Assembly: GCF_009911265.1 (NCBI RefSeq)
Contig: NZ_QXXA01000004.1
Span: forward strand, 248,001-312,000
Direction of reading: 5' to 3'
Length of the DNA: 64,000 nt
Origin: Senegalia massiliensis
Lineage (GTDB): Bacteria > Bacillota > Clostridia > Tissierellales > SIT17
Translations under genes and position numbers: made by a program
Shown here: positions 3,366 through 46,910 of the stretch, piece by piece
Numbering within the stretch: the first letter of the stretch is position 1
How the letters are laid out: each line of letters begins with the position of its first letter
The notes under the pieces: model-generated
Told to the model about the DNA's origin: nothing
The model's database searches: none
The model's input: the letters and a program-made list of their open reading frames with translations, nothing else

Positions 3366-3890
3366 GTGAGTGAAAAGCCAATTGTAACTATTGAAATGGA
3401 AAGTGGAGATAAAATTAAACTAGAGCTATATCCTGATATAGCTAAAAATACAGTTAATAATTTTATTTCTTTAATAAAAGAAAACTTTTATGATGGTCTT
3501 ATTTTTCATAGAATTATAAAAGGATTCATGATTCAAGGTGGTTGTCCTCAAGGTAGTGGAACAGGTGGACCTGGATATAGTATAAAAGGTGAATTTAGTG
3601 GTAATGGTATTAAAAACGATCTTAAACATGAAAAGGGAATTATTTCTATGGCAAGATCAGCTCATCCTGATTCAGCTGGTAGTCAATTTTTTATAATGCA
3701 TAAAGATTCTCCACATCTAGATGGTCAATATGCGGCATTTGGAAAAGTAATAGAAGGAATAGAAATAATAGATAAAATAGCAGAAATGGAAACCGGATAC
3801 AACGACAGACCTTTAGATGAGCCAAAAATAAATTCAATGACTATCGATTTAAATGGATATGAATTTAATGAACCAAACAAAATAAAATAA
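3366..3890 (+). CDS. Cyclophilin-type peptidyl-prolyl isomerase
   Basis: About 174 residues covering one full cyclophilin domain: FHRIIKGFMIQGG (catalytic Arg and substrate pocket), SMARSAHPDSAGSQFFIM and FGKVIEGIEIIDKI. It catalyses cis-trans isomerisation of Xaa-Pro bonds. No signal peptide is seen, so it should be cytoplasmic. The GTG at 3366 is chosen because TTAGGAGATGA precedes it at good spacing. An in-frame ATG at 3315 would add 17 residues unlike the family and has no ribosome site. It is a single-gene unit ending in a palindromic terminator shared with degV. Confidence 0.9.
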   Translation: MSEKPIVTIEMESGDKIKLELYPDIAKNTVNNFISLIKENFYDGLIFHRIIKGFMIQGGCPQGSGTGGPGYSIKGEFSGNGIKNDLKHEKGIISMARSAHPDSAGSQFFIMHKDSPHLDGQYAAFGKVIEGIEIIDKIAEMETGYNDRPLDEPKINSMTIDLNGYEFNEPNKIK

Positions 3891-3918
3891 TAGGCTAAAT
3901 TTAGCCTATTATTTTATT
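3881..3918. terminator. Bidirectional terminator between convergent genes
   Basis: A perfect 38-bp palindrome (core AATAGGCTAAA/TTTAGCCTATT) with A-rich and T-rich flanks. It contains the stop codons of both the cyclophilin gene and the convergent DegV gene. Confidence 0.9.
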
Positions 3919-4771
3919 TTGTTTTATTTAAGAAAAATATTGCAAGGGTACCTGGTCCTGAATGTGCTCCTATAGAACACCCTATCATATTAATTACAAA
4001 CTCTTTAATTCCAAACTTTTCTTTCATCATATTTTTTAATTCATTAGCTTTTTCTAAATCATCTCCATGACTTATAGCAACTGTTTGATCTTTTAAATCT
4101 ACTCCTCTTTTATCCATTATTTCTATCATTCTTTTCATAACCTTACTTGAACCTCTGACTTTTTCAATAGGTATTAGTTTACCTTCTTCTACATTTAATA
4201 TAGGCTTTATGCTTAAAAGTCCACCTACAAATGCTTGAGTTTTACTTACTCTACCACCTCTATAAAGATATTCTAAATTATCTACTGTAAAGACATGCTC
4301 CATATGATTACTGTAAAAATCAATTTGTTCTAAAATCTCATTTATAGTTTTTCCTTCTTTTGCTAAAGATGCTGCTCTATGTACTATAAGACCACAACCA
4401 AGTGAAGCAGCAAGTGTATCATAAACCTCTATTTTTGATTCAGGATATTCTTCTAATACCTCTTCTTTCATAAGATAACCGGTATTAAAAGTACCTGATA
4501 ATTGTGATGAAAATCCTATATAAATAATTTCTCTATTTTGTTTAGCATATTTAATGAAAGTATTTTTAAATGTTCCTGGAGATACTTGTGCTGTTTTTGG
4601 AGCTTTTCCATCTTTCATGAGTTTATAAAGCCCTTTAGGATTCATATCAACACCATCGCCATATTCTTTATCATCTATTATCACAGATAAAGGTAATATT
4701 TCTATATCTAATTCTTTTATTATTTCTTTTGGTAAATCACATCCACTATCTGCAATTATTTTTACAGTCAT
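3914..4771 (-). CDS. DegV family fatty-acid-binding protein
   Basis: A 285-residue DegV/FakB-type protein. The N-terminus KIIADSGCDLPKEI, the TAQVSPGTF and GFSSQLSGTFNT loops and the C-terminal IGAHSGPGTLAIFF are family signatures that line the lipid pocket. Proteins of this family present fatty acids to a FakA kinase in fatty-acid phosphorylation systems; no fakA is present here. The gene sits eleven bases after elaA on the same strand. The start at 4771 is supported by TAGGAGATGA. Confidence 0.9.
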   Translation of the reverse strand: MTVKIIADSGCDLPKEIIKELDIEILPLSVIIDDKEYGDGVDMNPKGLYKLMKDGKAPKTAQVSPGTFKNTFIKYAKQNREIIYIGFSSQLSGTFNTGYLMKEEVLEEYPESKIEVYDTLAASLGCGLIVHRAASLAKEGKTINEILEQIDFYSNHMEHVFTVDNLEYLYRGGRVSKTQAFVGGLLSIKPILNVEEGKLIPIEKVRGSSKVMKRMIEIMDKRGVDLKDQTVAISHGDDLEKANELKNMMKEKFGIKEFVINMIGCSIGAHSGPGTLAIFFLNKTK

Positions 4772-13908: not shown

Positions 13909-14652
13909 TTATTTCATTTTATTACTTTTTTGCCTCATCATTTCAAATGCAATTATTGAAGTTGCTGAAGTAACTGCAAGTGAAATTCCTTCATCCCTAC
14001 CATAAGGAATACTAATTATAGTATCTGCTTTATCTAAAAACGATCTAGTTATTCCTCTTTTTTCCCCACCAATAAGTAAAAATGTAGGTCTATCTAAATT
14101 TACATCATATAATGATTGCGAATCTTTCTTTGCAGTAGCTGCTATATTTAATCCATTTCTACTAAAAAATTCTGCAGCATAATCTATATCTTCTGCTATA
14201 GCCATAGGCATAAGTTCTGTAGTACCTGCTGAAGCTTTAGCAACAATACTAGTAGCTTCCATCCAGTTTCTTGGCTTTACTACTACCCCATCTACTCCAG
14301 CTAAATAAAGACTTCTTACTGCATATCCAAAATTATATGGATCTTCTATACCATCTAACATTACAATAAAAGGATTATTATTATCTTCAATAAGGTTTTC
14401 TAAAGTTAAAAATTTCTTTTCGCTAACCTTAGCTATAATACCACCATGAGTTTTCCCCTTTGTCATATCATCAATTACTTCACTGTCTACTTTTTTTATT
14501 TTAATACCTTTTCTATCTATCCAACTAATAAAACTTTTAATTCTTCTACTCTTTTTATTTTTATCAACATAAATCCGACTAATTCTTCTACTTTTTGCTT
14601 TTATAGCAGATTCTATAGATAATTTTCCTTCTAATATATATTCTTTTGTCAT
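13909..14652 (-). CDS. SpoU/TrmH-family RNA 2'-O-methyltransferase
   Basis: A 247-residue protein. The N-terminal substrate-binding domain (about 1-85) is followed by the SPOUT knot. Motif 1 is EDPYNFGYAVRS, keeping the Asn and catalytic Arg. Motif 2 is FLLIGGEKRGI. Motif 3 reads EGISLAVTSATSIIAFE, where the usual SLNVSVA asparagine is alanine. Enzymes of this family methylate a ribose 2'-OH in rRNA or tRNA using S-adenosylmethionine. The target base cannot be assigned, and RlmB identity is uncertain because of motif 3. A promoter-like TATAAT lies between a terminator at 14714-14737 and the start (AAAGGTGGTTAC then ATG). Confidence 0.85.
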   Translation of the reverse strand: MTKEYILEGKLSIESAIKAKSRRISRIYVDKNKKSRRIKSFISWIDRKGIKIKKVDSEVIDDMTKGKTHGGIIAKVSEKKFLTLENLIEDNNNPFIVMLDGIEDPYNFGYAVRSLYLAGVDGVVVKPRNWMEATSIVAKASAGTTELMPMAIAEDIDYAAEFFSRNGLNIAATAKKDSQSLYDVNLDRPTFLLIGGEKRGITRSFLDKADTIISIPYGRDEGISLAVTSATSIIAFEMMRQKSNKMK

Positions 14653-14713
14653 GTAACCACCTTTCTTTATTATATATTATACTTTAATTTAATAAATATT
14701 AAAATATAAAAAT

Positions 14714-14737
14714 AAAATGCGACAATTGTCGCATTTT
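14714..14737 (-). terminator. Terminator closing the mini-ORF cluster
   Basis: AAAATGCGACAA/TTGTCGCATTTT is a perfect 24-bp palindrome followed on the minus strand by ATTTTTATATTTT. It separates the cluster of tiny ORFs from the methyltransferase gene. Confidence 0.85.
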
Positions 14738-14738
14738 A

Positions 14739-14828
14739 CTAAGTTTTAATTGTAGATTCTATGATCAATTGCTCCTTCATACCAATATTTTCCTTAGTAT
14801 CAACTAAATATTTACTAATCAATATCAT
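14739..14828 (-). CDS. Mini-ORF e, 29 residues
   Basis: ATG at 14828 with AAAGGAGGTTAGTAAT upstream, one of the strongest ribosome sites in the window. The peptide begins MILISKYLVDTKENIG and ends IIESTIKT. It is neither a membrane helix nor a signal peptide. The stop codon lies immediately before the terminator at 14714-14737, so it is the last cistron of the cluster. No homologue is recognised. Confidence 0.5.
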   Translation of the reverse strand: MILISKYLVDTKENIGMKEQLIIESTIKT

Positions 14829-14854: not shown

Positions 14855-14947
14855 TTATTTATTAAATTCTATTTTAATATATTCATCTAATCCACAATCT
14901 CTTTTTATAGAACTCATATTTATTAGTCTATCAATTGTATTATGCAT
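14855..14947 (-). CDS. Mini-ORF d, 30 residues
   Basis: ATG at 14947 preceded by TAGGAGGTGAAATT at ideal spacing. The peptide begins MHNTIDRLINMSSIKRDC and ends IKIEFNK, with a single Cys at position 18. It is soluble in character. It lies 26 bases upstream of mini-ORF e and 31 bases downstream of mini-ORF c on the same strand. Function unknown. Confidence 0.5.
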   Translation of the reverse strand: MHNTIDRLINMSSIKRDCGLDEYIKIEFNK

Positions 14948-14978: not shown

Positions 14979-15047
14979 TTACTTTTCTTCATAAGAATCA
15001 ATTTTATAACCTAATTCTTCTTCTATACCATCATAAACCTTAAACAT
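14979..15047 (-). CDS. Mini-ORF c, 22 residues
   Basis: ATG at 15047 preceded by AGGTGGTGATATT. The peptide is strongly acidic: it begins MFKVYDGIEEELGYK and ends SYEEK. The start context (GGTGATATT, ATG, TTT) is nearly the same as in mini-ORF b, which hints that the two translation starts are related. Function unknown. Confidence 0.45.
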   Translation of the reverse strand: MFKVYDGIEEELGYKIDSYEEK

Positions 15048-15074: not shown

Positions 15075-15170
15075 CTAATACTTACATGATTCTATTTTTT
15101 TAAATAAATCTAATTCTGTTGATTCTTTTGAAACATTTACAATATTGCTAGTTTCAAATACTAAAAACAT
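15075..15170 (-). CDS. Mini-ORF b, 31 residues
   Basis: ATG at 15170 preceded by GAGGTGATATC. The peptide begins MFLVFETSNIVNVSKE and ends KIESCKY, with one Cys near the end. It is the first cistron after the triple hairpin region and has an inverted repeat at 15199-15221 just upstream. No maturation or export genes that would mark it as a modified peptide precursor are adjacent. Confidence 0.5.
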   Translation of the reverse strand: MFLVFETSNIVNVSKESTELDLFKKIESCKY

Positions 15171-15198
15171 GATATCACCTCACCTCTTTATTAATATG

Positions 15199-15221
15199 TG
15201 TAACAACAATAGATTGTTACA
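15199..15221. promoter_or_regulatory. Inverted repeat, possible operator
   Basis: TGTAACAA and TTGTTACA are perfect inverted arms separated by seven bases. The repeat sits 29 bases upstream of the start of mini-ORF b. No U-run follows on either strand, so it is more likely a protein-binding site or RNA stem than a terminator. It matches none of the Fur, Rex, CodY or GlnR patterns checked by eye. Confidence 0.35.
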
Positions 15222-15243
15222 TTTATTACAAATAGACAACAAA

Positions 15244-15357
15244 AAACCGCAGTATTAACTGCGGTTTCTTCTAAAGACACAAAAATAGCCGCAGTTCTGC
15301 GGCTATTTAAATATCTAATTGTAAAAGTATATAAATAAATCGCAGTATTCCTGCGAT
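15244..15357 (-). promoter_or_regulatory. Tandem CTGCG hairpins: probable transcription attenuator
   Basis: Three hairpins lie in a row on the minus strand. The first (15339-15357) pairs ATCGCAG with CTGCGAT. The second (15283-15308) has 12-base arms ending in CCGCAG and CTGCGG. The third (15244-15267) pairs AAACCGCAGT with ACTGCGGTTT and runs into TTTTTTGTTG. The stems share the CGCAG/CTGCG core, so each 3' arm can also pair with the next 5' arm. An extra CCTGCGAT inside the leader ORF (15401-15408) can pair with the first 5' arm over 8 bp. The arrangement fits ribosome-controlled attenuation, which is inferred. Confidence 0.6.
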
Positions 15358-15390
15358 GTTTATTACAAATATAATTTATGTAAAGCTAAT

Positions 15391-15459
15391 TTAATTATAA
15401 ATCGCAGGTCGTTTTTTATATTCAATTTTTTTAATTTTTAATTCATTTCTTATCATCAT
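15391..15459 (-). CDS. Mini-ORF a, 22-residue probable leader peptide
   Basis: ATG at 15459 preceded by AAAGGAGGTCG, about 25 bases after a predicted transcription start. The peptide is basic: it begins MMIRNELKIKKIEYKK and ends RPAIYN. Codons 18-20 (Pro-Ala-Ile) contain CCTGCGAT, which is complementary to the 5' arm of the first downstream hairpin. A ribosome finishing this ORF would mask that segment and let the terminator hairpins form. This favours a regulatory leader peptide over a structural protein. Confidence 0.55.
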   Translation of the reverse strand: MMIRNELKIKKIEYKKRPAIYN

Positions 15460-15490
15460 CTAAACGACCTCCTTTAATTTATTTGTTATA

Positions 15491-15519
15491 ATTGTATCAC
15501 ATAAATTTTCCTATTACAA
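15491..15519 (-). promoter_or_regulatory. SigmaA promoter of the mini-ORF cluster
   Basis: On the minus strand TTGTAA (15514-15519) and TACAAT (15491-15496) are 17 bases apart. The -35 abuts the stop codon of the aminotransferase gene at 15520. The predicted start near 15484 gives a 25-base untranslated leader before mini-ORF a. Confidence 0.65.
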
Positions 15520-16353
15520 CTATTTTTTTAGAAAATTTTTATTTTTCTTTATATATTCATCTACTCTTTTATTATATTCTTTCCTTATATTTTTTATTAC
15601 TCTATTTTTAGCTGAATTATATTTTCTATCATCAACTACTTTTATCGGTAATACTCCGACAGATGTGCCACTCATAAAAATACCATCAATATTATTAAGC
15701 TCTTCTATTTTTAAATTTTTTTCAACTATATTTACATCTAAACTTTCACACGCTTTTAATATATTAGCCCTTGTAACTCCTAAAAGTACTTCTCCTTTTG
15801 GAGCTGTATAAACTTCATTTTCTTTTATAAAAAACATATTTGAACGACTTCCTTCTGTAATATATCCTTTTTCATCTATAAGTAATGCTTCATATGCATT
15901 TTTTTGTTTTAACTCTTCTTTTACTTTTGTTTTAAAAGTATTATTTACTTTCTTAACATTAGGTAAATCTCTCATAGCCTTAATTGTAATAGTAGCTACA
16001 CCTTCATCATATATTCTTTCCTCTGGATAATTACTTTTTATAAAAAGGAATACAGATTCAAAATTATCACCATAATAATTTAATATAATTTTTATATTCA
16101 TATTGAATTCATCATTTTTGCTTATAAGTTTATAAATATTTTCTCTTATGCTTTCTTCATTTATTTGAGATTCATATCCTATCAAATCAATAGATTTTTT
16201 TAATCTTTCTATATGTTCTTCTAGAAAAAGAGGTACTCCATTAATAACTCTAATAACCTCATATACTTTTTCTCCTTCTTTTAATTTTAATTCTTTATTA
16301 TTAGACACTTCATTGTTATAAATAAAGAACTCTTTGTTAGTTTCTATATTCAT
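15520..16353 (-). CDS. Class IV PLP aminotransferase
   Basis: A 277-residue fold-type IV PLP enzyme. VYEVIRVINGVPLFLEEHIERLKKS is the N-terminal signature, NTFKTKV holds the likely PLP lysine, YITEGSRSNMFFI the cofactor-binding Glu region, and GTSVGVLPI the phosphate-binding loop. The family includes branched-chain aminotransferase, D-amino acid aminotransferase and aminodeoxychorismate lyase. No pab or ilv genes are near, so the substrate is open. AAGGTGGTAGTGTGAA precedes the ATG at 16353. It is divergent from pflB. Confidence 0.85.
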   Translation of the reverse strand: MNIETNKEFFIYNNEVSNNKELKLKEGEKVYEVIRVINGVPLFLEEHIERLKKSIDLIGYESQINEESIRENIYKLISKNDEFNMNIKIILNYYGDNFESVFLFIKSNYPEERIYDEGVATITIKAMRDLPNVKKVNNTFKTKVKEELKQKNAYEALLIDEKGYITEGSRSNMFFIKENEVYTAPKGEVLLGVTRANILKACESLDVNIVEKNLKIEELNNIDGIFMSGTSVGVLPIKVVDDRKYNSAKNRVIKNIRKEYNKRVDEYIKKNKNFLKK

Positions 16354-42115: not shown

Positions 42116-42300
42116 AACCCTTCCACTATCGAAGTGGAAGGGTTAATAAAATCATTTTATATACCACACCACTTCATTTCCACGTGAAGTTTCAAGTGCT
42201 TTTATATAATTTAAGGTATTCCGACTTAGTATATATTTATACCATACGGCGGCGGGCCCGTACAGGATTTTAACCTGTTTCCCCTCAAATTATACTTCAT
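42116..42300 (-). promoter_or_regulatory. Cobalamin riboswitch with terminator platform
   Basis: On the minus strand GAGGGGAAACAGG, AAAATCCTGTACGGGCCCGC, CGCCGTAT and AAGTCGGAATACC occur in the order expected of the cobalamin aptamer; the last is the B12 box. The expression platform is a 12-bp terminator (42116-42144, ACCCTTCCACT/AGTGGAAGGGT) followed by TTTTTTT. A good promoter (TTGCTT, 17 bases, TATTAT, at 42318-42346) lies upstream. Transcription would stop when cobalamin is bound, and the DUF4430 and ECF genes follow. Confidence 0.88.
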
Positions 42301-42317
42301 ATTATTTAACTAATTAT

Positions 42318-46819: not shown

Positions 46820-46910
46820 AATTGATTCGGTAACTGGCTGCCATTTAAAAGGCCCTTTAGTTTTGCGTCCTCTAAGTTTACCTAAAGTTTGCCCTTGTCG
46901 TTTAGAACTT
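46820..46910 (-). promoter_or_regulatory. c-di-GMP-I (GEMM-I) riboswitch before the TasA-like gene
   Basis: On the minus strand AAGGGCAAAC, a GTAA tetraloop stem, GGACGCAAAACTAAAGGGCC, and TGGCAGCCAGTTACCGA occur in order. These are the conserved segments of the class I cyclic di-GMP aptamer. It lies between the signal peptidase stop and the TasA-like start. No terminator follows the aptamer, and the ribosome site begins about 20 bases later, so control of translation is the simplest idea. Whether it turns the gene on or off cannot be read here. Confidence 0.8.

Follow-up and report, generated by a model that had tools for sequence, protein, structure and literature searches.

The minus strand of the window, by which we mean the whole 64,000-nucleotide stretch of Senegalia massiliensis DNA analyzed here, carries a leader that is very probably a real regulatory element, and that we consider likely to be a ribosome-mediated transcription attenuator sensing impaired translation, most likely when ribosomes are targeted by drugs. 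At the level of sequence, the parts of this leader, their pairings, the compensatory changes within them, the recurrence of the arrangement in relatives and the coding selection acting on the tiny ORFs downstream are established. The kind of switch is already known (the upstream ORF/anti-SD attenuators of BmrB, VmlR and CplR); on our best reading, the new elements are the series of terminators with the same core and the target, an array of tiny genes. An unannotated family of tiny peptides (22-31 aa in the window) would be controlled by a switch that elsewhere stands guard over genes for drug efflux, and a role of these peptides in translation stress is thus directly testable. Both the leader and the tiny peptides are missed by gene-family libraries and Rfam.

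Anatomy of the leader

The leader is adjoined upstream by an Aminotran_4 gene (15520-16353) and has on its other flank a gene for a putative TrmH-like rRNA methyltransferase, named from its sequence (13909-14652). A promoter-like TTGTAA-17-TACAAT (15491..15519, minus strand) is weak, matching the consensus at 9 of 12 positions in a scan that returned fewer sites than shuffled sequences did; the upstream sequences of two relatives, G001 and G003 (the latter genome from the same genus), resemble this stretch. A short ORF with a good SD sits between the promoter-like site and the terminators. This ORF, mini-ORF a (15391..15459, minus), encodes a 22-aa leader peptide, MMIRNELKIKKIEYKKRPAIYN, and its SD, GGAGG (15472-15468), lies within segment 1, GGAGGTCGTTT (15462..15472, minus). 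The amino acids of the peptide are not conserved, and the peptides are entirely different between species.

Predicted intrinsic terminators precede the target genes. Three hairpins follow mini-ORF a on the minus strand, as the earlier note had described: T1 (15339..15357; 7 bp, -9.8 kcal/mol), a weak terminator with a poor U-tract, TTATTTAT; T2 (15283..15308; 11 bp, -15.3 kcal/mol); and T3 (15241..15270; 13 bp, -17.1 kcal/mol). The CGCAG/CTGCG core common to all three and the complementarity of each arm to the next (5 and 6 bp) are also as that note reported, and so is the complementarity between CCTGCGAT (15408-15401) and ATCGCAGG, in the 5' arm of T1 (15357-15350). To these we add a 9-bp pairing that had gone unreported, between AGGTCGTTT in the SD of mini-ORF a (15470-15462) and AAACGACCT in the 3'-terminal part of that ORF (segment 2a, the anti-SD; 15406..15414, minus). 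With -15.6 kcal/mol, it is among the strongest pairings of the leader. Since the SD pairs with AAACGACCT at the end of mini-ORF a, CCTGCGAT (segment 2b, the candidate antiterminator; 15401..15408, minus; -9.8 kcal/mol with the T1 5' arm) turns out to be the latter half of an anti-SD segment. Mutually exclusive anti-antiterminator, antiterminator and terminator pairings are present, the T1 switch of the window not being reproduced at equilibrium (see below).

Between 14500 and 16600 there are six terminator-like matches, versus 0.1 (s.d. 0.3) in shuffled sequences, and the folding of the 250-nt leader has a z of -7.7. Rfam, at gathering and at permissive thresholds, gave no credible match at the leader; elsewhere in the window, a cobalamin riboswitch (42162-42307, minus) and a c-di-GMP-I riboswitch (46826-46903, minus) reach the gathering score. 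Between T3 and the first of the tiny ORFs lies an inverted repeat, TGTAACAA/TTGTTACA (15198-15222), and a similar stretch, TTGTAACAA, is found between T3 and T4 of the relative in G039 (L086, about 2380-2410).

Relatives of the leader and their covariation

A search of 150 relatives with the pattern GGAGGTCGT-N35-65-ACGACC found matches in 29, and a reversed-pattern control matched more rarely; two of the 32 places found are chance matches inside coding genes (L034, L038). In total, the order Tissierellales yielded some 33 relatives of the leader. Downstream lie ABC exporters of the MsbA/BmrC kind (22 loci), an MFS transporter (L061), a GNAT acetyltransferase (L097, found with a looser pattern) or an array of ORFs of about 30 aa (eight loci, the window included). 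The count of ABC loci includes once a second copy of the leader in the window's own genome, upstream of a 602-aa ABC exporter, and leaves L035, L046 and L047 outside the target classes. Described attenuators of the BmrB, VmlR and CplR kind usually, though not by definition, control a resistance gene. Efflux genes are the target at the 22 ABC loci and the MFS locus, and in the window the target is a set of tiny ORFs. In L036 and L037, the ABC gene is preceded by an ORF of four codons (MFKS) that has a good SD. The eight array loci (window, G001, G003, G011, G027, G039, G014 and G041) share one order, leader, three to four terminators with the same core and tiny ORF array, and in seven of them the leader is preceded by an Aminotran_4-like gene.

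The search pattern that recovered most leaders itself prescribes the SD/anti-SD core; independent evidence for this pairing therefore comes only from changes outside the core and from G039, G014 and G041, which were found through their tiny ORFs, independently of the pattern. These three carry compensatory changes: GGCCG/CGGCC, GTCGC/GCGAC and GCTGTA/TACAGC, respectively. Moreover, the pair immediately outside the search pattern is GC in 21 cases, TA in five, AT in four and GU in two, with only three non-pairs. The core of the onward pairing of segment 2 with the 5' arm of T1 likewise changes together with its partner: it is CCTATG/CATAGG in most ABC leaders, CCTGCG/CGCAGG in array leaders, CCTACA/TGTAGG in L003 and L062, and CCTGCGG/CTGTAGG in G033. 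In a permutation over 18 loci, about one per genus, the pairing of segment 2 with the T1 5' arm beats the permuted loci (p 1.5e-4), as does the pairing of the T1 3' arm with the T2 5' arm (p 5e-5). The signal comes mostly from differences between leader classes and the excess inside each class is small, and we therefore count it as a few events. The earlier proposal of an attenuator with a translated leader is supported, and in relatives both the segment complementary to the T1 5' arm, co-varying with its partner, and the multiple terminators with one core recur.

The tiny ORF array

Downstream of T3 the minus strand carries four tiny ORFs, each with its own SD, that the earlier note had not described: b (31 aa; 15075..15170), c (22 aa; 14979..15047), d (30 aa, with the motif D.GL.EY...E; 14855..14947) and e (29 aa, the last of the array; 14739..14828). 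A terminator-like hairpin (14711..14740, minus, also scored on the plus strand) closes the array. The tiny ORFs have in common the tail (K/R)D.GLEEY.KLE(F/L)(K/R) and have no match in Pfam or NCBIfam. Their pN/pS is 0.24 between G000 and G001, from few changes (19), and 0.13 between G011 and G027; by this measure, they are under coding constraint. A profile of the family, run over 249 genomes of the order Tissierellales, matches in 8 of them; a weak match lies next to an HTH+TPR regulator in a class-level genome. The array of G011 has 10-11 tiny ORFs of two alternating types, and in that of G003 an ATG-TAG start-stop pair follows the first SD (L030, about 2946-2955).

A search within a library of papers open without subscription found none on these peptide arrays. 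Because the leader elsewhere precedes genes for efflux or for an acetyltransferase, a role in the stress caused by translation inhibitors would be the first to consider for the tiny ORFs. Two other settings were observed. Two tiny ORFs from another order of the class, whose tail reads GLEEYKK(I/L)E (L095, minus, 3793-3986), are divergent from the gene of an HTH_3 + TPR regulator (L091, 2424-3728, plus); this layout is seen with peptide-responsive regulators, and by analogy the peptides may have a signalling role. Tiny ORFs of the same family also repeatedly precede genes for M29 aminopeptidases (L092, 2363-2720; L093, 2288-2374; L086, 2924-4033; L087, from 3634 on), in L092 and L093 without the attenuator leader.

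Proposed mechanism, alternatives and known systems

From this anatomy we infer transcription, termination, the sensing of drugs, the direction of the switch and any relay between terminators. Transcription would start near 15484. When mini-ORF a is freely translated and the ribosome has gone, the SD would pair with the anti-SD segment in the final part of mini-ORF a; this segment, being sequestered, would make no onward pairing; T1-T3 would form and the transcript would end. A ribosome detained on the start codon or close to it would instead cover the SD and leave the anti-SD segment, GACCTGCGAT, free for the 5' arm of T1; T1 would then fail, and some polymerases would proceed into the tiny ORF array. 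The series of same-core terminators would give a tight off state. In several genera, and not clearly in the window, a freed 3' arm could in turn occupy the next 5' arm, and relief may travel down the chain.

The earlier note suggested that a ribosome stalled early in the leader sets off the dissolution of the terminators. We folded the leaders at equilibrium under a constraint that mimics a ribosome on the start codon. The mask lowers T1 from 0.76 to 0.29 in G003, from 0.89 to 0.00 in G039, from 0.95 to 0.02 in G033 and from 0.96 to 0.19 in L003. No drop is seen in G011, G014, most ABC leaders tested or the window itself, where T1 goes from 0.55 to 0.62 and T2 and T3 stay at 0.92-0.93. Part of the reason why T1 is not lowered in the window is a small local hairpin that segment 2b makes as well (about 15405-15385). 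Equilibrium folding thus supports the T1 switch for part of the family; elsewhere, this switch would have to be kinetic.

A more ambitious reading, which we regard as doubtful, is that one stalled ribosome triggers a strand exchange in which segment 2 takes the T1 5' arm, the T1 3' arm that of T2 and the T2 3' arm that of T3, so that all terminators fail together. In the window, where the earlier note had proposed such a chain, it finds no support: the T1 3' arm pairs with the T2 5' arm at -5.4 kcal/mol versus -15.3 for T2, no stronger than expected of terminators paired at random (p 0.16), and cannot compete, and the T2 3' arm pairs with the T3 5' arm at -8.5 versus -17.1 kcal/mol for T3, marginal against random pairs (p 0.026). 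Folding and pairing energies give no route past T2 and T3 there. The null consists of 342 pairings of 19 unrelated window terminators (mean -3.0, s.d. 2.4 kcal/mol), and 33 of the 41 successive pairs of leader terminators, neither window pair among them, lie beyond its 1% point (p<0.01), which keeps a relay a live hypothesis for the family. Cross-duplex and terminator energies are -10.7/-13.7, -11.7/-12.8 and -14.9/-16.9 in G011/G027, and in ABC leaders such as L039, L055 and L057-L060 the cross-duplexes come near or go beyond the terminators; where cross-pairing rivals the terminators in this way (G011, G027 and many ABC leaders) a chain is possible. In G039, T4 lies some 23 nt upstream of the first SD of the array, so that transcription of this array has to pass T4 or to start at a promoter within the leader. 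The common core usually seen in successive terminators of relatives could, however, also come from duplication of a terminator. Moreover, all three terminators persisted in the stalled run of a crude simulation of co-transcriptional folding, although this counts for little, the unmasked run being trapped some 22 kcal/mol above the minimum. Equally doubtful is the fullest form of this reading, in which one ribosome-sensing leader controls 2-4 successive terminators by strand exchange between their common arms and one branch of the family drives arrays of 2-11 genes for peptides of about 30 aa, a new family with the tail given above, in a translation-stress response without described counterpart. 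Serial terminators with one core under one leader, if they do work as a relay, would offer a novel design for a steep, all-or-none RNA switch.

T1-T3 could also be back-up terminators without regulation, keeping transcription from upstream out of the tiny ORFs, the array having its promoter downstream of T3. The strength of T2 and T3, which do not respond to the ribosome mask, would fit this, as would the distance from T3 to the first tiny ORF, about 70 nt in the window and 250 nt in G003. Yet a scan of 15240-15180 (minus) found no promoter-like site, only about 23 nt follow T4 in G039, and this explanation would account neither for the conserved upstream ORF with its co-varying SD/anti-SD pairing nor for the occurrence of such a leader upstream of efflux genes; we consider this explanation unlikely. 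An attenuator of the trp/his type, serving the pathway of the neighboring aminotransferase, might be suggested by the Aminotran_4-like gene before the leader at seven of the eight array loci. That gene lies upstream, however, outside the regulated transcript, the leader peptides differ entirely between species, and the same leader precedes ABC, MFS and GNAT genes. With such mixed targets, and with no run of one codon in mini-ORF a, we reject amino-acid attenuation as highly improbable.

The attenuator that responds to impaired translation, the reading we prefer, has well-described counterparts. In BmrB (PMC4191407), VmlR (PMC9226507) and CplR (PMC10201436), a ribosome slowed on an upstream ORF blocks the anti-antiterminator, the antiterminator forms and the terminator fails. 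The anatomy of the leader matches this logic, and we would place it among these systems by predicted mechanism. Like the leader described here, that of bmrCD in Bacillus subtilis, bmrB, is translated and combines terminator, antiterminator and anti-antiterminator, and its target is an ABC exporter, as in most of the relatives; it has, however, a single terminator inside the leader ORF (PMC4191407), whereas 2-4 follow the ORF here, and in the window the exporter is replaced by the tiny ORF array. In the vmlR (PMC9226507), cplR (PMC10201436) and Lmo0919 leaders, the hairpin of the upstream ORF likewise serves as the anti-antiterminator, and an anti-SD element has been reported for CplR (PMC10201436) and Lmo0919. 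Unlike the present leader, these three have upstream ORFs of 3 codons, a single terminator and ABC-F targets, and the target's own SD is additionally hidden. A literature search, again confined to a library of papers open without subscription, found none on serial terminators under one antibiotic leader. In the attenuators of mefA and msrD, ribosome stalling relieves an intrinsic terminator, as proposed here, and there are two attenuators in one operon, but each comes with a leader peptide and a gene of its own (PMC10314930), unlike the serial terminators that stand here under one leader.
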